51,269 bases of DNA, from the IMG/VR virus record IMGVR_UViG_3300021368_000998, positions 1-51,269 of that record; one strand, given 5' to 3'. This document shows positions 9,226 to 42,751 of the stretch, piece by piece. The notes below the pieces were generated by a model. The model was given only the letters and a program-made list of their open reading frames with translations. It was not told where the DNA came from and did no database searches. The DNA is from a virus. The number at the start of each line of letters is the position of its first letter. Within the stretch, counting starts at the first letter, position 1. Both the position numbers and the translations under genes were made by a program.

Positions 9226-9767
9226 TGGCAGAACTAGCACTATCAGCACCATATAATGAAGTCCACAAGAGAAATGGTCAAACCATTCTTGTGGAAAACT
9301 TTAAAAAGAGAACTCCTGATGGATTTGAATCTTTCACTTCAGGTAATGCTGGACAGACACTAAGGGGATATGAACTCCATGTTTTTGATGGGGATAATGT
9401 CATTCAAGATTTGACTCTTACATACCCCACTCTACAGATCAGGGATTTTGAACTAAGACCTTTGTCTGCGTTCACATTGAACGGAGCTAGGTTCACTAAC
9501 GTTGGCACTACTTCGATGTTGCCCTTTGGTATGACTGCGAACTCATTGCAAGTGCTAACTACTGATCCGCAAATTCCTACTGTTTTGGAATCGATGACTA
9601 ATGTCGGTAGGTTTGCTGCGGCAGGTCATCTTTTTATTGGAGGATCTGCGCGTACTCTTTTTGAGTATACATCAAAAACACCAACGGGATTTATTGGTTA
9701 TGTAAAATCTGGAGCGGTTAATATCCCAGCATCTACGGAGTTCATCCAATACTCCACAGATGCCTAA
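9225..9767 (+). CDS. Conserved structural-region protein of unknown function
   Basis: This 180-residue protein starts at the ATG overlapping the upstream TAA (TAATG), which indicates translational coupling to the giant baseplate protein. It begins MAELALSAPYNEVHKRNGQ and has no signal peptide, membrane segment or catalytic motif that I can see. The composition is mostly polar beta-strand-like with few charged residues, as in virion proteins. The location between the YHYH protein and gp8 makes a baseplate or tail accessory role plausible, but I do not recognise the family and assign no function. A consensus late promoter follows its stop. Confidence 0.8.
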   Translation: MAELALSAPYNEVHKRNGQTILVENFKKRTPDGFESFTSGNAGQTLRGYELHVFDGDNVIQDLTLTYPTLQIRDFELRPLSAFTLNGARFTNVGTTSMLPFGMTANSLQVLTTDPQIPTVLESMTNVGRFAAAGHLFIGGSARTLFEYTSKTPTGFIGYVKSGAVNIPASTEFIQYSTDA

Positions 9768-9775
9768 ATATAATG

Positions 9776-9783
9776 TATAAATA
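9776..9783 (+). promoter_or_regulatory. T4-type late promoter element before gp8
   Basis: TATAAATA is an exact match to the T4 late promoter -10 consensus. It lies in the 48-base gap between two genes, about 32 bases before the gp8 ATG. A second weaker CTAAATA lies at 9764-9770. In T4 this element is read by host RNA polymerase carrying gp55 and gp33; those genes are not in this window. Confidence 0.7.
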
Positions 9784-9815
9784 AATCAGACATCAACGTT
9801 CTAGAGCAAAAAATA

Positions 9816-28000: not shown

Positions 28001-31000
28001 CTTCACCTTCACTTGCGATCAAAACGGACATGCTACCGAGCATACGTATCCTCGTCCTGGTCAAGATCCTTATGCAGGTCAGTCTATTGCAATTACTGCG
28101 GTTGGATCTACTCAGCATACAGTTACCAATGCTGTATATACTGCTTCCAATGGACAGGTTGATATCACCATTGCCAATCATGGATTCCAAGAAGGTGATT
28201 ATATCAAGTTTGATGACTCATCTCTAACCTTTACATGTAATCTAGATGGCAACACAGTTCAGAAGTCATATCCTCGTGCTGGTTATGACTATCCATCTGG
28301 TCGTTGGTTGCCTATCACCAATATTTCTACAAATGGATTCCGCGTTAACATTGGTCCTTCCGACTACACAGGTGCTCATACCTTCGTTAGTGCAACTACT
28401 AATGGTCTTTCCCGTCAGGATGGAACTTTTACTATTAATGTAGGAAATGCAGGAACTGCATCTGGTTCTACCCACCTCTTTGTATCTGCTACCACTAATG
28501 CTATTAAGCATGAACCACAATCTACCCACACATTTGTAGGTGCAACATCAAATGCTGTTAGACATCTTCCACAATCTGCTCACACATTCGTAAGATCCCA
28601 AACGAATTCCCTAAGCATTGGTGGTTCTGAACTGAAGATTTACCTAGGAACATCTAGATTTGTACACGATTATGTAAGTGGTGGTACTGTTACTTTCGGT
28701 GGATCCACATACAATATCACCAACTTTGTATACGACAACGTTGTCACTGGCGAAGCAACCATTACGCTTAATGCTCCTGTTGCTAATCTATCTGAGGATG
28801 CAACTGTACAAGTTGCAGATATCCTCCTAGAGTGTACTGTAGATGGTGTAGTTACCCAGAAGGTCTATCCAAGTTTCAGCATCCCTGTAAGCGACGAGAA
28901 GTGCCGTAGAGACGTTGGTCACTTCATTAGTGCAATCACTAGAGACCTTGAATATGGAAGTAACTATAACGTTATCGATGCAGCGAAGAAATACATCGAT
29001 GGAACTAATACAGAAATTGATTTTGTCAATAACGAAATTATTCAAACAGTACGTGCTCTAGAATATGCTAGAGAACTGATGATCCACGCTATGAGAAAGT
29101 GGCGTACTGGTACAGGTGCTCCTGGTCAACCAATTTATACTCCTCAGTATTCTTCTCTCCCACAATACTTTGACCCAACAATCATTGATGACCTCTCGTC
29201 ACCCGCTTGTGCTAACGTTGCATCTGCAATCGATACGCTTGCATATCTGTTTATTGATGTTCTTGCAAACAATTCTTCTGGAACATATCTAGATGGAGCA
29301 TATCTGATTGCTAGAAACAGAGATCTGATTGCTGATGAAGCGTACAAGCAGACTCTGGTTCAATATCCTAACCTAGCACTCAACAACATCGATGAGCGTA
29401 AGTGCCGTAGAGATATCAACCATATTATCAGTGCTCTCCTAAGAGACCTTGTTCTTGGTGGTAACTTTGGTATCGTCAATGCTGCTGAGTTCTACTTCAC
29501 TGGTGCTGCACTAACTGGCATTCCCGCTTCTGAACTAGCACCTACTAGATTTGCATTCCAAGAAGCAAAAGATCTTTGTATCGCAGCAATGCGTAACTGG
29601 TTAGATGATGCTGGTAATGCAGTTCTAACACCTCTATCGGACATTCCTCAGTTCACTGATACTAGCATTCTTCCTGACCCTGCTGGTATTCCTCTCTGTG
29701 CAAACGTACAGGCGTCTATCAACACAGCATTTACTTTGCTGGATAATATTCTCCTTTACGCAGTTGACACAAATAATGGTATTGCTCCTGGTGCTACCAC
29801 TAGAGACACAGGAACTCTCTTTGATACTTCTACACTCATCACATATCCCGAGAGCACAATCTACGATCAGACTGGACTTAGAATTACTCCACGTTCTGAC
29901 TTTGCAGATAACCCAATCATTGAAGCATCTCCATATACTCAAAACTCTTCTGTTATTTCCTTCCTAGGTGGTGGCGGTGCTGAGGTTGATGGTGCTAAGG
30001 TCAAGCAACCTAACTGCCCATTCCCTGGTCTAGAACTAGATGGTTCTGCAACCTTCCCTAATCAGGGTAAGTCGATGGTTGCTTCGGCATTCACGATCGT
30101 TTCCTTTGGTGGTACAGGATATAAGGTTATCAATGATGGTTACACTCAGTTGGTTTCCGTCTTTGTTATCTTCTGTGCTGATGGTGTTCTTGCTGAGTCT
30201 GGTGGTTACTGCTCCATCACAAACTCTGCAACCAACTTTGGTATCTTTGCTCTCCGTGGTAGTGGATTTAGAGAGGAAGCATATACATTTGACGTTGGTC
30301 AAATTACTAACGTATCTTCTACCCCAACTGGTAGAACAATCTTCACAGTCAATGGTCTTGGAAGAGAACCACTAGAGCACTACGTTGTTAAAGTTGATGG
30401 ATTCTCCAATATCAACCCAGACATTGAATACTTCGTTGACGTTGTTGAAGGCGTAACAGTTGGTCCTCCTTTCTCTGCTCAACTTACACTAGAGTCTGGT
30501 TCTGGTGGTGGTGCAGAATTCAAGCAAGATTCTACTGGCAACCCAGTTAGTGTTGGATCAATGGTCGGTGAGACCCTAAGATTGCACAGACCATCCATCG
30601 TTAACTCTTCTTCCCACACCTGGGAATTTGCAGGTTCTGGTACTAATTACAACGCTCTACCAGAAAACGGCGGTACTAAGGTCGAAGCATACGAACAGGT
30701 TTCTGAAAACTATGGTCGTGTATACGTCTCTGGTACTGACGAACTGGGTGACTTTAAGGTTGGTACGTTCGCAAGAATCGAAAACAGAACTGGTGCAATT
30801 ACCTTCACGGGTACTGTTACGATCTCGGAAGTTGAATTCTTGAAACTGAAGGGTGGCGACGTTGTTGTTACTGGTTTCGACGCATCCAACACACTGGGTG
30901 GTGCTAACTCCACCGACTCTAAACTGCCTACACAGAAAGCAGTTAAGGATTATATTACCAACAACCTTGGTCCATACCTCAACAAACCATATTCTACAAA

Positions 31001-34000
31001 CCCAGTTCCTAGAGCACTGGTTGAACTTACCGATTCAGGTAAGATCTCCGAAGATCAGATTCCACCTCTACGTCCTTTCCAGGTTTACACAGTTGCAAAC
31101 CTACAAGAAAGAGTTGCTATTGAAGGCGCACTTGCTGGTGACATCGCGATCCAACAGGATACATCAACGTCGTTCATTCTAAACAATGATAACGATAGTT
31201 TGTTCGTATCGTTCCCAGTAGACTCCACTCTACAATTTACTATTGGCGATGTCTTCACTGGTAGTAATACTGGCGGTAAGATTCAGGCAACTGAGTATAG
31301 AGAAGGTGTTGTATATCAGATTAACATCACTGATGGTGGTTCTGGTTACGTTACTCCTCCTGTTGTTACTCTCTCTGGTGGTAATCCACAAGCAGGTGCT
31401 ATTTCGGCAAACGCAACTTGTGAAATCGCGAATGGCATTGTTGTTCTAGTAACCATTGAACTATTCAATGGTCTCATCGGTGGTAAAGGATATACCTCTG
31501 CTCCCGTTGTTACTTTCGCCGCTCCTGCAGGTTCTGGTACACAAGCGCAAGGCAATGCGCTGATTGAGTCCAGACTCTATGGCGACATTGTTAACAACAT
31601 TAAGATAGAAGACACCGATGATATTGAATCTAGTGATGTTCCCTCGGAGACTATTAACCTCTCTCGTGTTGTTAATACATCTGCAAGCAACAGCAACAAC
31701 TGGGTATCTCTATCCTCCAACCAGATTGCTGCAAACGACATTACCTCTGGTGTTATCGCTACTGCTCGACTGGCATTCAACAATGCTGCAGCAAACTCGT
31801 TCTCCTTCCTAAGAGGTGATCAGTCATACGCTCCTGTAATTCAGTCCCTGAAGGGTGCTGAGACCAGATACTTTGCTAAGTTGACTTCTCAGGCAAATAG
31901 CGGTTCTTCTCAGTTGATCTTCGCTACAAACTCCGATGTACTACTGGGTCACGAAGTTGTAGCAAACATCAATGGTATTCAACCAAATACCAATATCACT
32001 GGTATTTTAACTGCTGCTGGTACAACTACAGTTTCGATTGACAATCCACTGACTGCCACGATTCCAATTAATAGCGTTATTGAATTCGAGAGAGGTCAGT
32101 CACCACTGACATTTGAATCTTCCTTGACTCAAGGAGACTTTATCGATTCTGTTGTTATCGCAGCGGGTGGTAGCGGATTTACCGATGGTCAGTATTTTGA
32201 CGTTGAACTAACTGGTGGTGCTGGTACAGGACTGAAAGCAAATATCATTGTTGTCGCAGGTTCTGTTACAGAACTGACACTAACTGCTTCTGGATCTGGT
32301 TATCTAAATGACTTTACAGTATCTTCTGCACCAGCAGAAATTGGTTCTGGATCTGGTCTGGTACTTCTTGCTAAACTCAGTACAGTTAACAAGCAGTTCG
32401 CGAACGTTGCTATTGACATTGCTAGAGTATCTGACCTAACAATTTCTGCTGATGAGTATGGAACAATCGGTGTTAGCAGATTCTATAAGGATCAGTTTGA
32501 TATCGGTCTAGCAGGAAATGGTTCTATCAAACTGAAGACTGGTGCAGATTCTGGTCTTGATGCTGACAAACTAGACGGCGCTCAAGGTTCATATTATCTA
32601 AACTCTAGCCACCAGAACGCTGGTACTCTACCAGTTGATAGATTATCTGGTACTTACAATATCAGTATTGCTAACCAGTCTGGTAGTACCCTAAAACTGA
32701 ATAGTTCTACTAGCAACCTAAATTCCAACCCAACTCCCGACGCATACAACGTTGGTATTATTGCTGATACAAGAAACAACTCTGCTGATGGACTAAATGA
32801 TGGCGGAAACCAGCACGTCACCCTAACGATTAGAAATGGAGGTTCTGGTTTTGATGCAGGTTTGGGTGGTGTAAGGCAACTTGCATTCACGGATAACGAT
32901 AACATGTATATTCGTGGTTCTGGTTCTACACTAGCAACCTTTGGTACATGGGCAAAAGTCTGGCATTCTGACACATCTCGTGGTGGAATGGGAGAATTCT
33001 CTGGTCTTGATGCTGATAGACTTGATTTCCGTGAAGGTTCTTTCTATCAAAATGCCATCAATATGAACACTGGCATTTTCAGTGACAATAGATTACCATC
33101 TCACCAAACAGCGAAGGACTTCCAGGATTCTATACGTGTTCTTGACTGGGATGGTAAAGCAAGATATAAGATTCTTGTTAGAGATGAACTTCTAACAGCA
33201 ACTCCATTCTTGGTAGGTCAGCAAGTTAACCTATATGCTGCCAATGGTACTGCTCCTGGTCGTATTGCAATTACAGAAGTTGCTGTTAACCAGGATATTA
33301 ATGATGCATATAACAACTACACACTAATCACGGGTACACTTGTAACTGGTAACTTTATTGGTGCAATTGAAATTGGTACTACAGCACAAAGCTATCCATT
33401 CCAAGACTTCAGTATTGCAACATTAGATGCTAACGCTGATGGTCTGGTTGATGGTACATTTGAAGTTGCTGCTCTTGAAAGTGATGGTGGTGCTGCAAGA
33501 CTGAAACTTGGTAGAAATGATCAGACATCTGCAACTGATCCTTCAATCTTCTTCAGATCTTCTTTGTTCCCTGCTACCAATTATAACTCAGCAATTATCG
33601 CTACGGGTGGTAATTCTACTGATGGATCTGGTTCTCTAGAGTTTAAGACAGCAAACGTCAATGCAATGACGTTGTTGGGTAACATTCTGTGGAACGAAGG
33701 AAACCTAGTTCCATATGTATCAAATGTTGGTTCTGCTTACGGACCTAATAATAATGCTTGGGATGCTGCAAATCCAGATGACAATGTAACGCTGAGAAGC
33801 ATTGTCATGAGAGACAAAGATGGCAACTTCAACGCTGGTACTATCACAGCAAACCTAACTGGTGCTGCTTCCTTGAACGTTCTCAAGGCAGGCGATACGA
33901 TGTCAGGCACACTGATCATCTCTGGTATCTCTGCAGCAAATCAGGCGCTGAGTGTGTCTGGTAGAGCAGACTTCCTAAGCAACATCACAGTTAATAACGA

Positions 34001-35123
34001 CCTTACAGTCAATGGCACCACGCTTCACGTTGATGCAACTGACGACACAGTAAGCATCGGTACTACTTCTTCCGATTCTGCTGTAAAACTTCTGATTGTA
34101 GAAGACGCTGATCAGGATGTTGTCCTGAGAATGTATTCATCCTACAATGTTGGTGGTGCTGCAAATCAGCGTGATGCAGTAATTCAATTGCTGGGTCAAG
34201 ATGGCACTCGCGATGAAGGTCTTGAAATTAAGTATGATAATAGTATTGGTGATGTATACTTCAAGCAACTATTCAATTCAATCACGACTGATGTTGCGAT
34301 TCGTTTTGGCACTGGTGCATTCGGTGATAATGCTCTCACTATTACTGGTAACGGCAACCTGGGTATCCAGATGGAAGCCGATGACGCATTTGAATTGGAT
34401 GTAAATGGATCTGCAAGGATCAAGACTGCTCTTAACATTGCTCGCGCTGAGAATAATGGTGGTGCTCCTGCAATCTTCGCAGGTGCAACTGGTGCATCTA
34501 ATGGATCAGGTGGTTATCTAAGCAACTTCCGTGTTGGTAACCAACTACTACAAGCAGATACGTTTGAAATCACACCTAGTGATGGAACACAAGGTGCTCT
34601 AGTTTGGAAATCTACTCCAGCACTTGCAATTCAAGGTTCCGAGAACCGAGTCGCAATCAACACTCTCCAGTTTGGTGGTACTGATACTACAGTATCTCCA
34701 CAGGTCCAGAGAGAATATCAACTCAACATTCAAGGTGATATCAACATCAATGGTTTCGTCTTCCAGAACAATGCTGAGTTCGTTACTTCCAGATGGACAG
34801 AATCTGACAATGAACTAGACATCTACAGAGAGTCTAAAGTTTGGATCAACCCAGATTCTACTGAAGCTGGATTCACTGGTGACCCTGACTATGATCTTCA
34901 AGTCGGTGGTGGAAATAACGCTGGTCACCTAGGACTACATGGTGTCATGTATGTTAGAGATACTCCTCAGTGGATTGATACCACTGGTATTATTAAGAAC
35001 TCTGCTAGTACAATTGCAGAGGATGTGACTATCCCAGCAAACGCAAACGCAATGTCGATTGGTCCCATCACGATTCAACCAGGAATCACTATTGATGTGA
35101 TTGGTAACTGGAACATTATCTGA
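25035..35123 (+). CDS. Giant repeat-built tail fibre protein
   Basis: This 3,362-residue protein is probably a long host-recognition fibre. Domain order: GxGY repeats (residues about 53-140); a pectate-lyase/DUF1565-like beta-helix start at residue 293 (GGRIYVSS..GNDLNDG followed by PVRTIKKA); four tandem FTC/YPRPG repeats (27372-28373) and a degenerate fifth; short HTFV repeats (28374-28625); two helical KCRRD units (28893-29790); a second beta-helix-like stretch near 29930-30300; a phage linker with LPTQKAVKDYI (about 30930); GxGY units at 31300-31570 and 32140-32370; distal fibre repeats (LTVNGTTLHV, ALTITGNGNLGIQ); and a C-terminal NAMSIGPITIQPG motif resembling other cyanophage fibre ends. 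No enzyme active site is evident. Codon phase is intact across all 10.1 kb. A GATAAATA element follows its stop. Confidence 0.87.
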   Translation: MSFQLNSDRETIRAIAPTLVGTQELSIRNGTGSDEKEVLRTLLDPNTDLPRVGINRTGNRIDRIVVNLGGTGYTTQPTVNIAPPPAGGTQALGTAIIDEGFVTAVLVDNPGLGYTTAPAVTITGGNGTGAQVEAFLDTVDFELDINGAIRTSTSIISDTARILNLDIDNFITPDAKFRAPDLKTYANGTGIPWSANVIVQKDAYRFRGPNVYQALNAGETGSSAPLHKDGTELNGEVNFKHIGFRVNDVSGYKYQETGESGEFPRSITPLLGDRSTKIATTEYVLNLATNDVGGRIYVSSQIGNDLNDGRSAVAPVRTIKKAAQLAWATPGVKETLIVSGGDYVEDNPISLPPDASVVGDNLRLVIIRPANPRKHIFKFGDKNYVIGVTYRDQIDSSGDAVATWDFAMVFDDKQRINYDYTVNGDFGTQFPIGTQIFGPEKFRADFQTNTGLANLVSSLPVRGVNTGAQGVLERVEFTTIIGPSAYVGGNVDFSVTSGTFTAGETFQFGGQGSIRWQPDTVYTTGQILWATDFVYTVAVGGTSAASSPVHDTGTVASGPDTLELTYLRDAYEFVSTDIRSIRAEGEVVFEDTNITDALPIVRVDFSLQGDPSIATGGFQDPGSPEDLGGIVFYTNALVGRQNTHDFKEGQEIVIEGMPTSSPDLSFLNGKQRIYKVLEDADGRARRFVIPKKTTITTTDNFDPGQFCSVRSYEKSITISLLNSPNRFPMATPIARRYQDACLQIRNNVEFIADEVVGKINDQFKKEYYSVYGIGGTPDAQFTPTNVTYDPATGDTVFTVNNHGLSIGDGVSIADQSITFTCTMDGNKTEHALPDTDQYASGKSLPITAVTTNTFTLNVGASGPNQLFTPSAATYNPSTGALNLTIGTHTLSVGEGIVIDDNSLSFTCDMDNNQSTKTYPRPGIDPFAGRSMPITEISETSITVNAGVSRPNQYFTPSAATYDASNGDLTVTVGQHGLGVGRSVVLEDNSFTFTCDQNGHATEHTYPRPGQDPYAGQSIAITAVGSTQHTVTNAVYTASNGQVDITIANHGFQEGDYIKFDDSSLTFTCNLDGNTVQKSYPRAGYDYPSGRWLPITNISTNGFRVNIGPSDYTGAHTFVSATTNGLSRQDGTFTINVGNAGTASGSTHLFVSATTNAIKHEPQSTHTFVGATSNAVRHLPQSAHTFVRSQTNSLSIGGSELKIYLGTSRFVHDYVSGGTVTFGGSTYNITNFVYDNVVTGEATITLNAPVANLSEDATVQVADILLECTVDGVVTQKVYPSFSIPVSDEKCRRDVGHFISAITRDLEYGSNYNVIDAAKKYIDGTNTEIDFVNNEIIQTVRALEYARELMIHAMRKWRTGTGAPGQPIYTPQYSSLPQYFDPTIIDDLSSPACANVASAIDTLAYLFIDVLANNSSGTYLDGAYLIARNRDLIADEAYKQTLVQYPNLALNNIDERKCRRDINHIISALLRDLVLGGNFGIVNAAEFYFTGAALTGIPASELAPTRFAFQEAKDLCIAAMRNWLDDAGNAVLTPLSDIPQFTDTSILPDPAGIPLCANVQASINTAFTLLDNILLYAVDTNNGIAPGATTRDTGTLFDTSTLITYPESTIYDQTGLRITPRSDFADNPIIEASPYTQNSSVISFLGGGGAEVDGAKVKQPNCPFPGLELDGSATFPNQGKSMVASAFTIVSFGGTGYKVINDGYTQLVSVFVIFCADGVLAESGGYCSITNSATNFGIFALRGSGFREEAYTFDVGQITNVSSTPTGRTIFTVNGLGREPLEHYVVKVDGFSNINPDIEYFVDVVEGVTVGPPFSAQLTLESGSGGGAEFKQDSTGNPVSVGSMVGETLRLHRPSIVNSSSHTWEFAGSGTNYNALPENGGTKVEAYEQVSENYGRVYVSGTDELGDFKVGTFARIENRTGAITFTGTVTISEVEFLKLKGGDVVVTGFDASNTLGGANSTDSKLPTQKAVKDYITNNLGPYLNKPYSTNPVPRALVELTDSGKISEDQIPPLRPFQVYTVANLQERVAIEGALAGDIAIQQDTSTSFILNNDNDSLFVSFPVDSTLQFTIGDVFTGSNTGGKIQATEYREGVVYQINITDGGSGYVTPPVVTLSGGNPQAGAISANATCEIANGIVVLVTIELFNGLIGGKGYTSAPVVTFAAPAGSGTQAQGNALIESRLYGDIVNNIKIEDTDDIESSDVPSETINLSRVVNTSASNSNNWVSLSSNQIAANDITSGVIATARLAFNNAAANSFSFLRGDQSYAPVIQSLKGAETRYFAKLTSQANSGSSQLIFATNSDVLLGHEVVANINGIQPNTNITGILTAAGTTTVSIDNPLTATIPINSVIEFERGQSPLTFESSLTQGDFIDSVVIAAGGSGFTDGQYFDVELTGGAGTGLKANIIVVAGSVTELTLTASGSGYLNDFTVSSAPAEIGSGSGLVLLAKLSTVNKQFANVAIDIARVSDLTISADEYGTIGVSRFYKDQFDIGLAGNGSIKLKTGADSGLDADKLDGAQGSYYLNSSHQNAGTLPVDRLSGTYNISIANQSGSTLKLNSSTSNLNSNPTPDAYNVGIIADTRNNSADGLNDGGNQHVTLTIRNGGSGFDAGLGGVRQLAFTDNDNMYIRGSGSTLATFGTWAKVWHSDTSRGGMGEFSGLDADRLDFREGSFYQNAINMNTGIFSDNRLPSHQTAKDFQDSIRVLDWDGKARYKILVRDELLTATPFLVGQQVNLYAANGTAPGRIAITEVAVNQDINDAYNNYTLITGTLVTGNFIGAIEIGTTAQSYPFQDFSIATLDANADGLVDGTFEVAALESDGGAARLKLGRNDQTSATDPSIFFRSSLFPATNYNSAIIATGGNSTDGSGSLEFKTANVNAMTLLGNILWNEGNLVPYVSNVGSAYGPNNNAWDAANPDDNVTLRSIVMRDKDGNFNAGTITANLTGAASLNVLKAGDTMSGTLIISGISAANQALSVSGRADFLSNITVNNDLTVNGTTLHVDATDDTVSIGTTSSDSAVKLLIVEDADQDVVLRMYSSYNVGGAANQRDAVIQLLGQDGTRDEGLEIKYDNSIGDVYFKQLFNSITTDVAIRFGTGAFGDNALTITGNGNLGIQMEADDAFELDVNGSARIKTALNIARAENNGGAPAIFAGATGASNGSGGYLSNFRVGNQLLQADTFEITPSDGTQGALVWKSTPALAIQGSENRVAINTLQFGGTDTTVSPQVQREYQLNIQGDININGFVFQNNAEFVTSRWTESDNELDIYRESKVWINPDSTEAGFTGDPDYDLQVGGGNNAGHLGLHGVMYVRDTPQWIDTTGIIKNSASTIAEDVTIPANANAMSIGPITIQPGITIDVIGNWNII
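27372..28373 (+). repeat. Four tandem ~75-87-codon coding repeats in the fibre gene
   Basis: Units begin near 27372, 27630, 27891 and 28116. Each codes for an opening FTP/TYxPxxG block, a GxG loop, an FTC-DxxN hairpin with one Cys, a YPRPG-like segment with DPxAG, a PIT strand and a terminal VNxGxS strand. Units differ enough at DNA level to be old. A fifth degenerate unit (LECTVDG, KVYPSF) lies near 28800-28890. Confidence 0.75.
28374..28625 (+). repeat. Short HTFV coding repeats
   Basis: Four imperfect units code for (A/T)H(T/L)FV followed by S/G-A-T-x-N and a variable linker (for example THTFVGATSNAVRHLPQS). They follow directly on the YPRPG array in the same gene, and the last two units are spaced by 18 residues. 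Confidence 0.65.
28893..29790 (+). repeat. Two tandem helical KCRRD units in the fibre gene
   Basis: Unit 1 starts at 28893 (DEKCRRDVGHFISAITRDL) and unit 2 at 29391 (DERKCRRDINHIISALLRDL). Each continues with a Cys- and Ala-containing helical region (ACANVASAIDTLAYLFIDV; LCANVQASINTAFTLLDNI). They are the only strongly helical part of an otherwise beta-rich fibre. Confidence 0.7.
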
Positions 35124-35129
35124 TAAATA
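35122..35129 (+). promoter_or_regulatory. Late promoter-like element at head of adhesin/enzyme cassette
   Basis: GATAAATA overlaps the upstream stop codon and ends about 33 bases before ATG 35163. The match is 7 of 8 to the T4 late consensus. No comparable intergenic element was found until 40073, so the genes from 35163 to 40088 may be transcribed from here together. Confidence 0.55.
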
Positions 35130-35162: not shown

Positions 35163-36221
35163 ATGTCTAGTCTAAATGTAGGAACTGTAACGTTATCCAA
35201 TGGATTGACACTTCCTTCTTATACATCATCTCCTGATAACAGACCTTCCCATGCTGCAGGAAAAACTATCTATGATTCCACTTCGGATACTATCCAGGTT
35301 TCTGATGGAACTCAATGGATTAGTGCTGGATCCTCTGGTTCTGGTCTAGTTACTGCAACAGGCGGAGAAATCACTTTTGCAGGAGGTTATAAAGTTCACA
35401 CATGGTATAACGTGGGTGAATACAATTTCCAAGTTCAGGGTGCAGCATCTGGTGCTACCATTGAAGTTCTTGTAGCTGCTGGAGGTGGATCTGGAGGAAC
35501 TATCGGCGGCGGTGGCGGTGGCGGCGGTGTTTGCTACAATGGATCATTCCCAGTCTCTGTTGGTTCTTATCCAGTAAAAGTTGGAGCAGGTGGATCTACA
35601 CCACTTTCTGGATATCCTGTAGCAAAAGGAAATAGTGGATCTCCTTCTAAATTTGGAAACCACGAAGCATACGGCGGTGGTGCTGCTGGATCCTGGGGTC
35701 CTAATGCTAGAGAGTCAGGAGAACCAGGAGGATCTGGTGGTGGCGCAACTGGTCCTGGTCCTAGGGCACCATCGCTAGGAGTTGCAACTCAAGGTGTTGC
35801 TCCTGGTAGTGGTGTTACTCATGGAAATCCTGGTTACGAAAATGGTAACAGAGTTTCTGGAACACACTCGGGTACTCACACTGGCGGTGGTGGCGGTGGT
35901 GCAAACCCCAATAACACTCGTAACGGAAGAGTCGGTGGCGATGGAATCACTTACATGGGTCTAACTGTCGGTGGTGGCGGCGGCGGTGGAACCCACGAAA
36001 ACTATGGTACTGCTCCTATTGCAACTCCTGCTGCTCCTGGCGGTGGTGGTCGCGGTGCATCCAGATCTTCTCAGTTCGCAGGTGGCGGCGGTCAAGGTTG
36101 GGGTGAACCAGGACAAGTTAATACTGGTGGCGGCGGAGGCGGCGGCTGGTATAATGGTGGTGGTAATGGTCAAGGATCTGCTGGTGGTCCTGGCATCGTT
36201 CGTGTCCGTCATACAGTCTAA
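35163..36221 (+). CDS. Glycine-rich adhesin-like fibre-tip protein
   Basis: This is a 352-residue protein. The N-terminal ~60 residues (LNVGTVTLSNGLTLPSY; NRPSHAAGKTIYDS; QVSDGTQW) form a module common at the start of small phage tail proteins. The remainder is very Gly-rich with runs of 6-8 glycines (for example IGGGGGGGGVCYNG) and a final GGPGIVRVRHTV strand. This resembles the polyglycine-rich adhesins at fibre tips of some T-even phages (gp38 type), with variable loops between Gly runs. A host-receptor-binding role is therefore plausible but inferred. The protein at 40116 is a paralogue with the same architecture. The 2-oxoglutarate oxygenase gene follows 3 bases after the stop. Confidence 0.8.
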   Translation: MSSLNVGTVTLSNGLTLPSYTSSPDNRPSHAAGKTIYDSTSDTIQVSDGTQWISAGSSGSGLVTATGGEITFAGGYKVHTWYNVGEYNFQVQGAASGATIEVLVAAGGGSGGTIGGGGGGGGVCYNGSFPVSVGSYPVKVGAGGSTPLSGYPVAKGNSGSPSKFGNHEAYGGGAAGSWGPNARESGEPGGSGGGATGPGPRAPSLGVATQGVAPGSGVTHGNPGYENGNRVSGTHSGTHTGGGGGGANPNNTRNGRVGGDGITYMGLTVGGGGGGGTHENYGTAPIATPAAPGGGGRGASRSSQFAGGGGQGWGEPGQVNTGGGGGGGWYNGGGNGQGSAGGPGIVRVRHTV

Positions 36222-36224
36222 TAT

Positions 36225-36725
36225 ATGTCCCTTTACAATGTTGAGGAAAATTTCCTCAGTGAAGAAGAGTTTGATCAACTAACTACACAAACAATATACA
36301 ATCACTACTTCCCGTTGTATCTGAAGCACCGAGTAGCATCGGCGTCTTCAGACGACGGGATTTATTTTACTCATAATTTCTTTTTTGGTGGGGAAGCGTG
36401 TAGTGATTATTACAAACATCTTCTTCCTATTCTCCTAAGAATTAAACCCAAAAAATTACTTAGAGTTCAATTAAATTTATTCCCCAAAACTGCTGAGATC
36501 GTACAGCACGACTGGCATACTGATATGCTGTGGGATCATAAGGGTTGTATAGTTTACCTAAATAGTAATGACGGATCAACCTTGTTAATGGAAGATGATG
36601 AGAATGCCGTGAGCATTCGTTCTATATCAAACAGAGCATTATTTTTCAATCCAGGAAAACTCCACTGCAGTACGACATGTACTGATTCTGAATTCAGAAG
36701 CAATATCATTTTCAACTATGAGTGA
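36225..36725 (+). CDS. Putative Fe(II)/2-oxoglutarate-dependent oxygenase (1 of 4)
   Basis: This 166-residue protein carries an HxD...H...R signature: H98-T-D100 in HDWHTDM, distal H147 in GKLHCSTTC, and R158 eleven residues later in SEFRSN. These positions fit the facial triad and 2-oxoglutarate-binding Arg of a double-stranded beta-helix dioxygenase. The N-terminal MSLYNVEENFLSEEEFDQL resembles the start of small prolyl-hydroxylase-like phage and bacterial proteins. Substrate is unknown. ATG 36225 follows the adhesin stop by three bases with no clear Shine-Dalgarno, and the gene overlaps the next by 8 bases, so coupling is likely. Small oxygenases of this kind are common in marine T4-like phages. 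Confidence 0.78.
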   Translation: MSLYNVEENFLSEEEFDQLTTQTIYNHYFPLYLKHRVASASSDDGIYFTHNFFFGGEACSDYYKHLLPILLRIKPKKLLRVQLNLFPKTAEIVQHDWHTDMLWDHKGCIVYLNSNDGSTLLMEDDENAVSIRSISNRALFFNPGKLHCSTTCTDSEFRSNIIFNYE

Positions 36726-37389
36726 TTTTTATAATGTGTTTTCTATACCTGTATGGAAAACAAAAATAACCAAGGATGATTATGATAAAGATCTCATCCT
36801 TGGAGAGATGCTACACAACTTTAAAGTAGATCCCAAAAGAAATACTTGGGATAAGGTGATGCCAACTACTATGAAAAGTAACTGGCATCATTCCAACAAT
36901 GATGAATCTGATGAAAGATTTAAGTCTGTCAGTTACGAAGAGTCTGGTTTAACTTCGGTTATCAACTCGAAGGTTAGAGAATTCTTTTCTCATCTCGGGT
37001 TGAATTCTGATGTCAATTATTTTTTTCAAATAACAAACTACACAGTATCCACTGAAGGATACTTTCTGACTAGTCATGGGCACGGCAGTGACTCTTTTAG
37101 TTCAGTTCTGTTTGTTCAATTTGATAAACTAAATCACCCATCTACTTATTTCAACAATCCATTTAGTGCAGCAGATCAAACACGTTGGTTGCAAAAAGAT
37201 TTATATAATTCTTTTGACAATCGAAACCCGTTTTTCAGTTATATGCAAGATACATGGGCGATCGATACTGACGAAGATGACTACATGATTTTCCCTGGAC
37301 ACGTTAAACACGAGGTTCCTACAGTAGGAAAATCAAACAAAGAACGAGTAACTATTTCATGCAATATTAAGGTCTATAAAGATGTCTAA
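36718..37389 (+). CDS. Putative 2-oxoglutarate/Fe(II) oxygenase, TIGR02466-like (2 of 4)
   Basis: This 223-residue protein has the layout of the TIGR02466 family of putative oxygenases: an N-terminal FSIPVWKTKI, a central H120-G-H122 in TSHGHGSDSFSSVLFVQF, and a C-terminal GHVKHEVPTV with H198 and R210 in KERVTISCNI. The paired His replaces the usual HxD, as is common in this family as I remember it. The predicted reaction is hydroxylation with O2 and 2-oxoglutarate; the substrate is not known. The gene overlaps the upstream oxygenase by 8 bases and the downstream halogenase by 8 bases. Confidence 0.75.
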   Translation: MSDFYNVFSIPVWKTKITKDDYDKDLILGEMLHNFKVDPKRNTWDKVMPTTMKSNWHHSNNDESDERFKSVSYEESGLTSVINSKVREFFSHLGLNSDVNYFFQITNYTVSTEGYFLTSHGHGSDSFSSVLFVQFDKLNHPSTYFNNPFSAADQTRWLQKDLYNSFDNRNPFFSYMQDTWAIDTDEDDYMIFPGHVKHEVPTVGKSNKERVTISCNIKVYKDV

Positions 37390-38938
37390 AGAAATCAATT
37401 CTATTACTATTGTTGGTGGTGGTAGTGCTGGATGGATGTCTGCAGCTACCATGATTAGATTTTTCCCCAACAGAAAAATTACGATCATTGAAAGTCCTGA
37501 TTTTCCTATTGTAGGAGTTGGAGAAAGCACTCTAGGACATATCAATCAGTGGTTAAATCTTCTTGGAATTCATGAAGATGACTTCATGAAAGAATGTGAT
37601 GCATCATACAAATTGAGCATCAAGTTTACAGACTTCTATGCCAAGGGTGATGGTGGTTATCACTATCCATTTGGACCACCACTAAAAGATGGTACTGAAC
37701 TTGGACTCAATGACTGGCATGTCATGAAGTTGTTTGCTCCTGGTACTCCAGTACAAGACTTTGCTAGATGTTTTAATCCCATTACTCTACTAGCAGAACA
37801 AAACAAAATTGATAAAAATGAGAGTGGTCACCTAGACAACTTTGATTTTTCAAGGGATGCTGCATATCATTTTGATGCTGTAAAGTTTGGTCAATGGTTG
37901 AAGAATAACTATTGTCTCCCTAGGGGGGTAGAACTTATTGCTGCTTCTGTTAAAGATATTACTACTGATGAAAATGGTATTGAGTCTTTGATTCTAGATG
38001 ATGGTACAGAACATTCTGCTGACATGTATCTAGATTGCACTGGATTTAAGAGTATGCTTCTTGCTGGTGCTATGAAAGAAGAGTTCATTTCTTATAGAGA
38101 TGTTGTTCCAAATAACAGAGCATGGGCAACCAGAATGCCATATACAAATAAAGATGAGCAATTGCAACCTTATACAAATGGCACTGCCCTGTCATCTGGT
38201 TGGGTATGGAACATTCCTTTGTGGAGTAGAATTGGTACAGGGTATGTTTATAGTGATGATCACATTACTCCAGAAGATGCTCTAAAAGAATTCCAAGAAC
38301 ATATTGGAAGAGATGATCTTGAGTTTAGAGATATCAAGATGCGTATTGGAATTCATAAAAACGTATGGACAAAGAACGTAGTTGGTATTGGACTAGCAGG
38401 TGGATTTATTGAACCATTAGAGAGTAATGGTTTGTTTACTGTACATGAGTTCCTTCTCAAATTGACCAGATCTATTGCAAAACCTTTTGTAAATCAATTG
38501 GACAGAGATATCTTTAATATGTCTGTTCGTGATATATTTGATACGTTTGCTACATTTGTTGGTTTACATTATCGACTCAGTTCTAGAAACGATAGTTCTT
38601 ATTGGAGAGATGTTACAGAAAGAACTAATCTTCGCGAGGAAATTCTAAGAATCCCTCAGATGCAAACAGACTTTAGACATCTTGCTGCAGCAAAAATGAT
38701 TGATGAGCAATTTACCGATGGGGGACAAGCATACATTGCTACTGGTATGCATTATCCTTTGATTGATGATTCGACTTTACTTTCGTGGACATATCATAAT
38801 GATGTAGACTACAGAAAGTTGGCACAAAGAGCAGCACTTAGATTTACACGTAGAAAAAATATGTGGCAAAGTGTTTCGGATATTGCGCCAACATTGCACG
38901 AACACTTGGCAAATAAATATGAGTATGAGGTAAATTAA
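37382..38938 (+). CDS. Flavin-dependent tryptophan halogenase homologue
   Basis: This is a 518-residue protein, typical of flavin-dependent tryptophan halogenases (about 510-540 residues). FAD-binding GGGSAGW is at residues 12-18 and GVGES at 45-49. K77 or K81 in SYKLSIKF matches the region of the catalytic Lys (K79 in PrnA). The diagnostic WxWxIP motif is W274-V-W276-N-I278-P279, and E344 in FIEPLESNG matches the position of PrnA E346. All key elements are present and the frame is intact, so activity is plausible. The family chlorinates or brominates an indole using FADH2, O2 and halide; it needs a flavin reductase, and none is seen here. It overlaps the upstream oxygenase by 8 bases. Halogenase homologues are known in cyanophages; their substrate is unresolved. 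Confidence 0.88.
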   Translation: MSKEINSITIVGGGSAGWMSAATMIRFFPNRKITIIESPDFPIVGVGESTLGHINQWLNLLGIHEDDFMKECDASYKLSIKFTDFYAKGDGGYHYPFGPPLKDGTELGLNDWHVMKLFAPGTPVQDFARCFNPITLLAEQNKIDKNESGHLDNFDFSRDAAYHFDAVKFGQWLKNNYCLPRGVELIAASVKDITTDENGIESLILDDGTEHSADMYLDCTGFKSMLLAGAMKEEFISYRDVVPNNRAWATRMPYTNKDEQLQPYTNGTALSSGWVWNIPLWSRIGTGYVYSDDHITPEDALKEFQEHIGRDDLEFRDIKMRIGIHKNVWTKNVVGIGLAGGFIEPLESNGLFTVHEFLLKLTRSIAKPFVNQLDRDIFNMSVRDIFDTFATFVGLHYRLSSRNDSSYWRDVTERTNLREEILRIPQMQTDFRHLAAAKMIDEQFTDGGQAYIATGMHYPLIDDSTLLSWTYHNDVDYRKLAQRAALRFTRRKNMWQSVSDIAPTLHEHLANKYEYEVN

Positions 38939-38940
38939 TT

Positions 38941-39504
38941 ATGGCATTTGAAGCGATGTGGTATAAATCTCATCTTCCAGAAGAGATTATTGATCCCATG
39001 ATGGAGCACTTATGGGACTCCGATAATTTTATTGATTCAGAAACCAAAAGTGGTCTACAATTAGATATTAGAGATAGTCAACACCAATGGATTCCTGATA
39101 GTCATTGGGTGTGTGGGTTGTTGTGGCACTACGTGAATCTAGCAAACAATGCTAACTTTGGTTATGACATCACTCAGTTTGATCATAATGCAATTCAATA
39201 CACTAAGTATGAAGCTGGTCAATATTATGGATGGCATAAAGATGATGGTGTTGCCGCTATTGATCCTAATGATAAAACCAAACAAATCAGAAAATTGTCT
39301 GTCGTAGTTCAGTTGTCTTCCCATGAAGATTACACTGGAGGAGAATTCCAGATGATGGAAGATATCAATAGAACTTTCTTTGCTCCAAAGCAAAAAGGTA
39401 CTATTATCATTTTCGATAGTAGACTTCCCCATAGAGCAAAGAAAGTATTGACTGGCGAAAGAAGATCTCTTGTCGCTTGGGTAACTGGACCTCAATGGAG
39501 ATGA
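38941..39504 (+). CDS. Putative prolyl-hydroxylase-like 2-oxoglutarate oxygenase (3 of 4)
   Basis: This 187-residue protein is the clearest of the four oxygenases. It has H99-K-D101 in YGWHKDDG, a YTGGEFQMM strand, GTIIIFDSRLPHRAKKV with distal H164, and R174 (or R175) in GERRSLVAWV. This is the P4Hc/PKHD-type pattern of Fe(II)/2-oxoglutarate hydroxylases. It starts two bases after the halogenase stop, and its TGA overlaps an ATG (ATGA) at 39501. The substrate is unknown; peptidyl proline is possible by family but not shown. Confidence 0.82.
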   Translation: MAFEAMWYKSHLPEEIIDPMMEHLWDSDNFIDSETKSGLQLDIRDSQHQWIPDSHWVCGLLWHYVNLANNANFGYDITQFDHNAIQYTKYEAGQYYGWHKDDGVAAIDPNDKTKQIRKLSVVVQLSSHEDYTGGEFQMMEDINRTFFAPKQKGTIIIFDSRLPHRAKKVLTGERRSLVAWVTGPQWR

Positions 39505-39506
39505 GT

Positions 39507-40088
39507 ATGAAGTGGAATGACTGGTCTGTAATCCTCGTAAGAAATATAGTAAATCCTATTCGTTTATATGATGGTATTCCCGAAGAACGAGGAGCAATAA
39601 GATACAACCCCGATGGTGTTGTATGGGAACCAAGTGAAGGTCCACTTGGAGTAGATGGCAGTTTATCTAGATATAATCATCCAAAATATAGAGAACTTCA
39701 TTATGAGTTAAAATCTAAAATAGAAAATGTCATAGGAGATGTTTTATACCCATCATATTTTTATGACAGATTTTATTTTAAAGGACAAGAGTTGGTAGAG
39801 CATACTGATCGACCAGCATGTGAAGTAAGTATTTCTATTAATTGTTCTCACAATCTAGATTATGATTGGCCAATTTGGTTTAGAACTCCAGAGGGTGATG
39901 ACATTCCTTTGATTACAAATCCTGGAGATGCAGTAATTTACAAAGGTGAAGAGAGACCTCATTGGAGAAAACCAATGAAAGGGAATGCTAAATCTTATTT
40001 CCATCAACTCTTTATGCATTATGTTCGTAGAGATGGTCCACACTTGGAACATGCATACGACAAAAGCAACACTATAAATAAACTATAG
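39507..40088 (+). CDS. Putative 2-oxoglutarate oxygenase with atypical 2OG-binding residue (4 of 4)
   Basis: This 193-residue protein starts at ATG 39507, chosen because GGAG at 39497-39500 lies six bases upstream. The ATG at 39501, which overlaps the previous stop as ATGA, is a close alternative; a TTG at 39477 is unlikely. It has H99-T-D101 in VEHTDRPACEVSISIN, then GDAVIYKGEERPHWRK with distal H152. The residue ten positions later, where Arg is usual, is K162 (NAKSYFHQLFMHYV). This matches a family of oxygenase-like proteins common in cyanophages. Fe(II) binding looks intact; 2OG binding by Lys or another residue is inference. Its 3' end contains the late promoter for the next gene. Confidence 0.72.
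   Translation: MKWNDWSVILVRNIVNPIRLYDGIPEERGAIRYNPDGVVWEPSEGPLGVDGSLSRYNHPKYRELHYELKSKIENVIGDVLYPSYFYDRFYFKGQELVEHTDRPACEVSISINCSHNLDYDWPIWFRTPEGDDIPLITNPGDAVIYKGEERPHWRKPMKGNAKSYFHQLFMHYVRRDGPHLEHAYDKSNTINKL
40073..40080 (+). promoter_or_regulatory. T4-type late promoter before the second adhesin gene
   Basis: An exact TATAAATA lies in the last codons of the upstream oxygenase gene, 35 bases before ATG 40116. Its spacing matches the other late elements in the window. Confidence 0.65.
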
Positions 40089-40115: not shown

Positions 40116-41330
40116 ATGTCGGAAATTAATGTTGGTGATTTAAACGTATCTAACGAACTTAGATTACCTTTATATAATAGTTCTAACAGACCTGTTAACC
40201 CTGCTACTGGGTTTATGATCTTCAACACCACTGAAGAGAAGCTGCAGATTTGGGACGGATCTAACTGGAAGAGTTTTGGTCAAAAGAATTACGATATTAG
40301 TGCTACTGGAAGCTATCAGTCGATCGATTTGACCAACGAATATAATGGATATCGCTGTTATAAGTTTACTGGCGATGGAACTATTACAGTAAACCAAAGC
40401 AACCCAGACGACGGTGTAGAATTCGTTCTCATTGCTGGAGGCGGTGGCGGAGGAGGAGTTATTGGTGGCGGAGGTGGTGGCGGTGGCGTCATCTATCGCA
40501 GAAGTGTATATCTATCACCAGGAACTTATAGTATTACGATTGGACAAGGTGGTGCTGCTGGAACTGGATGGAATAGTCCTCAACAGGAAGGAACTGCTGG
40601 CGGTCCTTCAATCTTTACTGACAATGCTGGATTCACATATGAAGCAGTAGGAGGAGGCGGTGGTTGCGCTCACGGCGGCGCTTCTCCAAATAGAATTGCT
40701 GGTCAAGGCGGTTCTGGTGGTGGTAGTGCAAACGTTCAGCGTCGTGGTGGCAATGCTATCGGCAAAAACTTTGGACCACAAGATACCGACAAAGGACATG
40801 ATATTAGATCTGTGTACACCAATAGTAATGAAGCACATGCGTCAACTGATGTTTTAGGAAGGAGTGGTCAAAATTGGGATGCAGTCGAAACTGCTACTAA
40901 TATGGCTAGAGGAGTGCAAGGTCACGCTGGAGGAATCTGGGGTGATGGCGACGCAGGCGCTGGTGGCGGCGGTTGTGGATCTAATGGTGGCAATGGTGGT
41001 GCTCCCCGAGATACTGGGGGAGAAGGTGGTCATGGATGCTATTTCGATTTGGATGGCAACATGACTGGATATGCTGGCGGTGGTGGCGGCGGTGTCCGAG
41101 GCACTGGTCGTCGTCGTGGAGTCAAGGCAGGTGACTATGGCGGTGGAGATGGAGGTAGATCTACTTCTGCTCCAGTATCTTTCGGCAGTCCAACCCCCAA
41201 TAATGCTGAAGCTGGCGGCACCAATCGTGGCGGCGGTGGTGGCGGTGGGGGTTATAATGCTCCCAGAGGCGGCGCTGTCGGTGGTCCTGGTGGATCAGGA
41301 ATATTCATGATTAGATATAAGAGGACATAA
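40116..41330 (+). CDS. Glycine-rich adhesin-like protein, paralogue of the one at 35163
   Basis: This 404-residue protein begins with INVGDLNVSNELRLPLY, NRPVNPATGFMIFNT and QIWDGSNW, aligning block by block with the first adhesin-like protein. The rest is Gly-rich, with runs up to eight glycines and variable inserts, and it ends GGPGGSGIFMIRYKRT, closely matching the other C-terminus (GGPGIVRVRHTV). A polyglycine sandwich-like fibre-tip adhesin is the best structural guess. The two paralogues flank the oxygenase/halogenase cassette. Diversification of receptor binding by having two tips is possible. It has its own exact late promoter. Confidence 0.8.
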   Translation: MSEINVGDLNVSNELRLPLYNSSNRPVNPATGFMIFNTTEEKLQIWDGSNWKSFGQKNYDISATGSYQSIDLTNEYNGYRCYKFTGDGTITVNQSNPDDGVEFVLIAGGGGGGGVIGGGGGGGGVIYRRSVYLSPGTYSITIGQGGAAGTGWNSPQQEGTAGGPSIFTDNAGFTYEAVGGGGGCAHGGASPNRIAGQGGSGGGSANVQRRGGNAIGKNFGPQDTDKGHDIRSVYTNSNEAHASTDVLGRSGQNWDAVETATNMARGVQGHAGGIWGDGDAGAGGGGCGSNGGNGGAPRDTGGEGGHGCYFDLDGNMTGYAGGGGGGVRGTGRRRGVKAGDYGGGDGGRSTSAPVSFGSPTPNNAEAGGTNRGGGGGGGGYNAPRGGAVGGPGGSGIFMIRYKRT

Positions 41331-41332
41331 AA

Positions 41333-41647
41333 ATGGCATTGGATTTAACATATGTTGCTTCTCTAACTGAAGCACAAAGACAAACAATCGTTACAGTAAT
41401 TAATCACATTGAAGACGAGGAACCATTTGGTCCTGGTGTAACTTCTGATTGGATTGATGAGATGAGAGAAACTCTCCGTCTTTCTGCACCCAGACAGGAA
41501 GATATTGATCAATGTGAAACACTGAAAAAAATCGCAAACACAAAACTCACATATTCTGTTAATAGACTTGCTGATGACAAAGGACTACCTGTTGTCACTA
41601 TTACGGGTAACACTCTAGAACTTGACAGAGTGTTTATCGAAGACTAA
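41333..41647 (+). CDS. Small conserved-looking protein after adhesin gene
   Basis: This 104-residue protein begins MALDLTYVASLTEAQRQTIV. The ATG is two bases after the adhesin stop. It is mostly helical in the N-terminal two-thirds (EAQRQTIVTVINHIEDEE; WIDEMRETLRL; EDIDQCETLKKIANTKLTY) and ends in a short beta segment (PVVTITGNTLELDRVFIED). No known motif was recognised. Coupling to the Gly-rich adhesin suggests an assembly partner or chaperone, but this is inference from position only. Confidence 0.75.
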   Translation: MALDLTYVASLTEAQRQTIVTVINHIEDEEPFGPGVTSDWIDEMRETLRLSAPRQEDIDQCETLKKIANTKLTYSVNRLADDKGLPVVTITGNTLELDRVFIED

Positions 41648-41920: not shown

Positions 41921-42751
41921 ATGGCTACACCAACAAGTAAAGCAGAATTAATTGAATACTGCGAACGCCAGTTAGGTGCGCCTGTCCTGCAGATCAACAT
42001 GGATGCCACCCAAAAGGATGACATCATCGATCAGGCGATTCAATATTATCACGAATACCATTTTGATGGTGTTGAAAGGATGTATCTCAAACATCAGTTT
42101 ACTGCTGATGAGGTAACTCGTTTCAATGAAACTGATGCTGCGTCTACATCTGCTGACGGGACTGCATGGGAGAACAGGAGCAACTACATTGAGGTTCCTG
42201 AACTTGTCATTGGCATTCAAAAAGTATTTGGTGTTTCCTCAAACTTTATGAGGAACAACCTTTTTGGTATGAGTAACCAATACTATTTGATGGACCTGTT
42301 CTCGTTCTCTTCAGGTTCTGCATTTAGTTTTGGTAACTTTGACTTGACAAACTACTTCATGATCAAGCAGCACTTCGAGACTATTGATATGATTATCAAT
42401 ACAGGTGCTCTGGTTGAGTATAGGTTTAACAAGAGACAAGACAAGTTGTATATTGATATCGATAAGTCTAGGATTGTAGAAGATCAGTATCTCCTTATTG
42501 ACTGCTACAGATACCTAGATCCATCTACTCATACTCAAGTATTCAACGATAGTTTTGTCAAGAGATATGCTACTGCTCTTATGAAGAGGCAGTGGGGACA
42601 GAATCTAATCAAGTATAATAACGTCTCTCTTCCTGGCGGCATTAACCTTAATGGTCGCCAATTATGGGAAGATGGAGATCGTGAAGTGAGAGAATTAGAG
42701 TCTAGAATGATGACAGATTATTCCCTTCCACCAATGGATATGATCGGATAA
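41921..42751 (+). CDS. gp13: Neck protein gp13 (head completion)
   Basis: This 276-residue protein begins MATPTSKAELIEYCERQLGAP, followed by QAIQYYHEYHFDGVERMYLKH, the typical opening of gp13 in T4-like cyanophages. T4 gp13 is 309 residues. In T4, gp13 and gp14 form the neck ring that completes the head after packaging and lets the tail attach. The C-terminal GRQLWEDGDREVRELES block is also family-like. It opens the gp13-gp14-gp15-gp16 run in T4 order and is separated from gp14 by one base. GTGC/AGGTGC just upstream is a weak ribosome binding site. Confidence 0.92.
   Translation: MATPTSKAELIEYCERQLGAPVLQINMDATQKDDIIDQAIQYYHEYHFDGVERMYLKHQFTADEVTRFNETDAASTSADGTAWENRSNYIEVPELVIGIQKVFGVSSNFMRNNLFGMSNQYYLMDLFSFSSGSAFSFGNFDLTNYFMIKQHFETIDMIINTGALVEYRFNKRQDKLYIDIDKSRIVEDQYLLIDCYRYLDPSTHTQVFNDSFVKRYATALMKRQWGQNLIKYNNVSLPGGINLNGRQLWEDGDREVRELESRMMTDYSLPPMDMIG

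Follow-up and report, generated by a model that had tools for sequence, protein, structure and literature searches.

The 51,269-base stretch analyzed here (IMG/VR virus record IMGVR_UViG_3300021368_000998, positions 1 to 51,269, hereafter the window) originates from a T4-like cyanomyovirus, a marine phage with a cyanobacterial host. On its + strand, five enzyme open reading frames (ORFs), which encode four oxygenases (O1 to O4) and a halogenase (HAL), span positions 36225–40088 and are flanked by two paralogous glycine-rich, fiber-tip-like genes (Gly1 and Gly2). The ORFs are arranged in the order of O1-O2-HAL-O3-O4, with overlaps of 8 and 8 bases followed by gaps of 2 and 2 bases, if O4 starts at the ATG at position 39507. 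This start, which follows the annotation of Synechococcus phage Sf-CH11, is better than the TTG at position 39477 of the mechanically called ORF. Sf-CH11 is the isolate closest to the window. Their halogenases are 97% identical and their gene order is identical. Given that the identical cassette was found in Sf-CH11 as well as in six IMG/VR contigs (L102, L103, L106, L112, L114, and L128), it is not an assembly artefact. The tight + strand run of four oxygenases and a halogenase between paralogous glycine-rich genes, which the first-pass annotation had described from the letters of the window, is thus confirmed by the ORFs, Pfam and Sf-CH11.

Based on its sequence, HAL (37382–38938, +; 518 amino acid residues) is a flavin-dependent halogenase. 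It matched PF04820 over its full length with a score of 348 bits (cut-off, 21 bits) and possessed a GxGxxG motif. K77 and E344 of HAL, of which the former corresponds to K79 of VirX1, were invariant across 23 phage halogenases, and the motifs GGGSAGW and GWVWNIP were also present. VirX1 was the best solved relative of HAL (PDB 6qgm, E 3e-109). The gene for VirX1 is the second halogenase gene in the cassette of cyanophage Syn10, where positions 9511–11103 of the sequence L007 matched the 6qgm sequence. Since no flavin reductase gene was found in the window record, which is a genome fragment, the reductase for HAL is assumed to be host-derived. A halogenase homolog of a Campylobacter phage was also considered as a cassette member and was rejected. 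It was ~25% identical and was located near ligase and tail sheath genes, with no glycine-rich cassette.

Sequence profiles, comparisons between profiles, motifs or the modeled fold place O1 to O3 among the 2-oxoglutarate (2OG)/Fe(II) oxygenases and make O4 a probable 2OG-type oxygenase. O2 (36718–37389, +; 223 residues) and O3 (38941–39504, +; 187 residues) passed Pfam 2OG models, the former with 29.6 bits to PF13759 (cut-off, 27 bits) and the latter with 53 bits to PF13640. The match of O1 (36225–36725, +; 166 residues) was weak (E 0.012), and O4 (39507–40088, +; 193 residues) matched no Pfam family. In profile-profile comparisons, in which unrelated controls scored no more than 0.4%, O1 and O4 matched the O3 family at 97.9 and 91%, respectively, while O2 matched the PF13759 family at 99%. 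The HxD..H..R arrangement was found as HTD(98)..H147..R158 in O1 and as HKD(99)..H164..R174 in O3. O2 contained HGH(120) instead of HxD, plus H198 and R210, and O4 contained HTD..H with invariant H99, D101, and H152. O3 was PKHD/prolyl-hydroxylase-like and matched PDB 3dkq (E 1e-6) and the viral prolyl 4-hydroxylase 5c5t (E 0.0015). The AlphaFold model of O4 had a predicted local distance difference test (pLDDT) score of 90.9, and its top five Foldseek matches were all the prolyl 4-hydroxylase (P4H) of P. putida (E ~1e-6). The public and PHROG label of O4, ferrochelatase, was rejected, as no Pfam family was matched and the modeled fold is that of 2OG/P4H proteins. Similarly, the PHROG label of O1, "DNA endonuclease V," is misleading for this 2OG-type oxygenase. 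The labels "DNA endonuclease V" and "ferrochelatase" of phrog_274, phrog_2954, and phrog_3531 all sit on 2OG-type oxygenases, and similar names are found in GenBank cyanophage records. Mislabeling of 2OG-type oxygenases is probably widespread in cyanophage records.

Gly1 (35163–36221, +; 352 residues) contains 29.5% glycine with six runs of at least four glycines, and Gly2 (40116–41330, +) has 404 residues. The two proteins are 37% identical and both belong to PF21722 (Gly_rich_2), with 31.5 and 56 bits, respectively. A PDB sequence search with Gly2 and with the adhesin of phage S-SRM01 gave no significant match. Directly 5′ of the cassette lies a giant fiber-type ORF of 3362 residues (25035–35123, +), whose large-fiber cluster ("BIG") is also found upstream of glycine-rich genes in relatives. 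On the other side, a small conserved ORF of 104 residues (41333–41647, +), which is located 3′ of Gly2 in close relatives and is possibly a fiber accessory, is followed by the gene for the gp13 neck protein (head-tail adaptor Ad2; 41921–42751, +). The latter, identified from the Sf-CH11 annotation, forms the right border of the module and was used as an anchor for comparison. In phage S-SZBM1, gp51–54 of the fiber module just 5′ of the cassette are virion proteins as determined by mass spectrometry. The histidine content of glycine-rich proteins was 2.2% near a halogenase and 0.62% without one (p = 2e-5); the control set for this figure was small, came from few lineages and was confounded by lineage, and the figure was not used further.

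The late promoter of T4 has the sequence TATAAAT (PMC3037559), and ATAAATA was taken as the core for motif scanning. In the window, ATAAATA occurred 11 times on the + strand (at 9777, 20143, 35123, 38913, 40074, 41649, 44824, 45122, 46084, 48031, and 50936) and never on the – strand. This number is not above chance, whereas the strand bias and the positions are unusual, as 9 of the 11 sites lie 16–60 bases 5′ of a gene start (p ~3e-13). The positions provide a readable late-promoter map of the window record. Genes with an upstream site include Gly1, O3, Gly2, and a small ORF before gp13. The site 40 bases 5′ of Gly1 (35123–35129, +) is a candidate promoter for Gly1-O1-O2-HAL, the one 28 bases 5′ of O3 (38913–38919, +) is a candidate promoter for O3-O4, and a (T)ATAAATA (40074–40080, +) lies 42 bases 5′ of Gly2. 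Across all loci compared, the motif was found upstream of 47 of 154 glycine-rich genes (30%), 39 of 56 gp13 genes (70%), and none of 75 psbA genes, with a background of 1.1%. The motifs and the overlapping gene ends suggest that O1, O2, and HAL are transcribed late together with Gly1 and that O3 and O4 are late as well. Thus, the enzymes are probably made alongside the virion.

The genomic neighborhoods of halogenase-anchored and psbA-anchored IMG/VR loci were compared over 5 kb after the same processing. A glycine-rich ORF was present within 5 kb in 28 of 41 halogenase loci and 4 of 34 psbA loci (Fisher, 6e-7), contrary to the possibility, raised by the first-pass annotation, that the enzymes lie mostly away from fiber genes in related phages. 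The 2OG genes were found within this distance in 31 of 41 and 9 of 34 loci, respectively (3e-5), with means of 3.3 and 0.3 per locus, and both gene types were found together in 23 of 41 halogenase loci and none of 34 psbA loci (2e-8). These p-values overstate the certainty, because the scan covered the best 80 halogenases by likeness to the window, the contigs share ancestry, the glycine-rich class was defined by composition and the ORF caller was simple. Among loci whose flanks extended a full 5 kb in either direction, glycine-rich ORFs were present in 16 of 23 halogenase loci vs. 4 of 24 psbA loci, and glycine-rich plus 2OG genes in 13 of 23 vs. 0 of 24. Linkage of the enzymes to fiber-tip genes is therefore conserved beyond that of the psbA controls. 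Moreover, halogenase genes were found at the gp13 site in 12 of 18 dereplicated loci with a glycine-rich gene and 2 of 12 without (p = 0.011). The contents of this site were glycine-rich, 2OG, and halogenase genes and a few unknowns; psbA, hli, and talC were not seen there. Neighboring enzyme genes were on the same strand in 417 pairs and on opposite strands in 10, with a median gap of –4. When 126 halogenases were placed in a quick tree, the glycine-linked state extended across most of it, with a minimum of seven changes. The callable rows comprised 71 linked and 11 unlinked halogenases, a count biased toward "linked," since an unlinked call needed full flanks.

When the genes of annotated phages and of IMG/VR contigs were mapped, a recurring order emerged, in which a giant fiber gene is followed by 1–3 glycine-rich genes, a small protein, 1–4 halogenases and an uncharacterized protein. 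Next come several 2OG oxygenases, in some cases a JmjC-type enzyme, and then a member of the O4 family. The cassette was 5′ of gp13 in the window, S-RIM44, Sf-FP1, and Sf-FR1. It was distant from gp13 and each time after glycine-rich genes in Syn9/Syn10, S-CREM1, P-TIM40, P-RSM6, S-WAM1, and S-SZBM1. In S-SRM01, it sits between the fiber and the adhesin, and that of S-CREM1 contains up to nine 2OG copies. The cassette also recurred in the divergent contigs L039, L040, L043, L049, and L059, where the glycine-rich genes are oppositely oriented. Moreover, the Actinomycetia phage DSL-LC01 (L264, 3094–9636) contains a giant fiber gene, two collagen-repeat genes and one for a YHYH protein, directly followed by a halogenase gene and then a glycosyltransferase gene, so that the fiber/halogenase neighborhood extends beyond T4-like cyanophages.

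Several further features were seen on these maps. The IMG/VR contigs L034, L039, L040, L043, L049, L058, and L059, all from divergent phages, had up to 4 halogenases and up to about nine 2OG genes nearby, several with convergent glycine-rich genes. In Pelagibacter phage HTVC008M (L013), the opposite strand carries five 2OG-type genes (2046–4919) between a glycine-rich/small fiber gene pair and gp13, and a halogenase and a 2OG gene are inserted between terminase genes. A protein of 240–280 residues, represented by phrog_7084 and its relatives (L008, 12063–12926; L058, 4150–4908), often adjoins the halogenase. This family (u15), which is common in the cassettes, had no Pfam match and no relation to 2OG oxygenases by profile comparison; it is a candidate partner or substrate-recognition protein.

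We lean toward the interpretation that the cassette serves late post-translational hydroxylation and halogenation of the glycine-rich receptor-binding fiber proteins. Its grounds are the gene content, the families and folds, the conserved active-site residues, the recurrent linkage to glycine-rich fiber genes and the late motifs. A virion substrate is favored because the constant partners of the enzymes are glycine-rich fiber genes and not biosynthetic or photosynthesis genes, and because the association recurs in a pelagiphage and an actinobacterial phage. Protein substrates are possible, given that the fold of O4 resembles that of the P4H solved with EF-Tu, that O3 resembles PKHD and viral prolyl hydroxylases and that the active site of VirX1 is open and accommodates large or bulky substrates (PMC8407142). 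The cassette would then be expressed late and would tailor proteins of the apparatus by which the phage itself adheres. The glycine-rich genes would encode receptor-binding fiber-tip proteins, whose side chains may be hydroxylated by the prolyl/peptidyl-hydroxylase-like 2OG oxygenases. The VirX1-type halogenase may halogenate aromatic residues with host-supplied reduced flavin and halide from sea water, and the resulting tips could be more stable or more diverse. More generally, the enzymes and glycine-rich genes are paired in many unrelated phages, which may thus hydroxylate and halogenate the parts with which they grip their hosts. More tentatively, we propose that marine phages have a late module that can be transferred between them and is dedicated to the hydroxylation and halogenation, possibly iodination or bromination, of their receptor-binding fiber tips.

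Several results weigh against modification of fiber tips. No modified residue has been observed. In the virion proteome of S-SZBM1, the glycine-rich gp48–50 and the enzymes are not listed, so that the virion status of the glycine-rich tips is unproven. Non-detection of gp48–50 says little, because each yields only 7–9 tryptic peptides of 7–25 residues (Gly1 yields 5), and a catalytic, not a structural, role would explain why the enzymes are missing from the list. The AlphaFold model of Gly2 is of low confidence (pLDDT, 49.6) and unusable. The O4-type family lacks the usual arginine ~10 residues past the distal histidine and has an invariant R154 two residues past H152. The contents of tryptophan, tyrosine, and proline did not differ between 127 glycine-rich proteins near a halogenase and 13 without one. 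The main exceptions to glycine linkage are a psbA-linked clade of the S-MbCM6 type, S-PM2/Syn1, and S-B64/S-H35. The halogenases of S-B64/S-H35 are in a recombination module, and only those of the S-MbCM6, Syn1, and S-PM2 type are near psbA/hli, whereas the window cassette is in the fiber module. The modification of virion proteins suggested by the first-pass annotation is thus upheld in part. Fiber linkage beyond that of psbA loci, the co-occurrence of the enzymes with relocated fiber modules and the late motifs speak for it, while tryptophan as the halogenation target is unsupported, as glycine-rich proteins with and without a halogenase close by do not differ in tryptophan and tyrosine content.

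Alternatively, the enzymes might tailor a small molecule, converting a host or phage-induced metabolite, such as tryptophan or indole, into a halogenated, hydroxylated antibiotic or signal late in infection. Flavin-dependent halogenases of the classic type, like many 2OG oxygenases, work in natural-product pathways, the role proposed for phage halogenases in the literature is antibiotic protection of a pyrrolnitrin-like kind (PMC9964418; PMC2984593), and VirX1 accepts many small aromatics as substrates in vitro (PMC8407142). However, core genes of biosynthesis, such as those for a carrier protein or a synthetase, are absent from the cassette, its constant partners are glycine-rich fiber genes, also in SAR11 and actinobacterial phages, and its late motifs suggest a timing shared with structural genes. 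We regard small-molecule tailoring as unlikely.

Somewhat less likely still is that a variable site adjacent to fiber genes takes up any auxiliary genes, whose roles in host metabolism, such as 2-oxoglutarate drawdown or nucleic-acid repair, are unrelated to fibers. Such roles agree with how cyanophage 2OG oxygenases have been interpreted in the literature (PMC3037559; PMC9602691), where the proposals include nitrogen signaling and DNA repair (PMC3037559; PMC9146016), and other 2OG genes are found elsewhere in cyanophages, e.g., near uvsY/uvsW. A general cargo site is at odds with the absence of psbA, hli, and talC from the gp13 site, with the same gene set lying beside glycine-rich genes at other genomic positions and with the lack of joint 2OG and glycine-rich genes at psbA loci. 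It is highly improbable that the enzymes alter a surface structure or receptor of the host instead of the virion, by which superinfection would be blocked or release aided. The late motifs and adhesin-like neighbors would also be compatible with such receptor masking, and the many distinct 2OG copies, up to nine in S-CREM1, suit multiple sites on several fiber proteins at least equally well.

Since 2010, the halogenase and 2OG oxygenase genes of cyanophages have been cataloged among the auxiliary metabolic genes, and the roles given to them are only speculative. No paper proposing fiber modification was found in the literature searched, the coverage of which was incomplete, and the neighborhood may have been discussed earlier. 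As the enzyme families have long been known in cyanophages and VirX1 has been studied biochemically, what looks new is their conserved late linkage to fiber-tip genes; only a fiber-modification system itself would be new. The in-phage substrate of VirX1 is not named in the literature searched, including the available part of PMC8407142, and the linkage supplies a concrete substrate candidate for enzymes of this family. If true, fiber-tip modification would add a new layer to the chemistry of phage-host recognition, account for the build-up of many 2OG oxygenases in cassette-bearing genomes, identify what enzymes of the VirX1 family act on in phages and mean that ocean viruses make halogenated proteins. 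To our knowledge, it would be without precedent as a system of halogenated virion proteins.

Similar to HAL, the iodinating VirX1 of cyanophage Syn10 possesses the catalytic lysine and glutamate, and its gene is part of a homologous cassette located 3′ of glycine-rich fiber genes with many 2OG oxygenases. Different from HAL, VirX1 is encoded by the second gene of a tandem halogenase pair in Syn10, and HAL and VirX1 are only ~38% identical over the full alignment. The tryptophan halogenases PrnA and RebH share the PF04820 fold, the GxGxxG and WxWxIP motifs and the catalytic lysine and glutamate with HAL. Their C-terminal part binds free tryptophan. Because alignments of HAL to free-tryptophan halogenases end near HAL residues 410–425, this part is not recognizably shared by HAL. 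MibH, a lanthipeptide tryptophan-5-halogenase (PDB 5uao), is also homologous to HAL (E 9e-48) and is a precedent for halogenation of tryptophan within a peptide; however, its substrate is a small ribosomal peptide of an antibiotic pathway and not a virion protein. The P4H of P. putida, which was solved with EF-Tu, and vCPH of PBCV-1 (5c5t) act on protein substrates and are resembled by O4 in fold and by O3 in sequence, although their sequence identities to O3 and O4 are low and their usual 2OG-binding arginine position has no counterpart in the O4-type family. Finally, the gp38 tip adhesins of T-even/S16-type phages resemble Gly1 and Gly2 in their long glycine runs and their position at the end of the fiber operon. 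The top structural matches of Gly2, the fiber of cyanophage Pam3 and the glycine-rich domains of ALK/LTK, were weak (E >0.01) and came from the low-confidence model. Different from the gp38 adhesins and the Pam3 fiber, to which its match is not significant, Gly2 belongs to PF21722.

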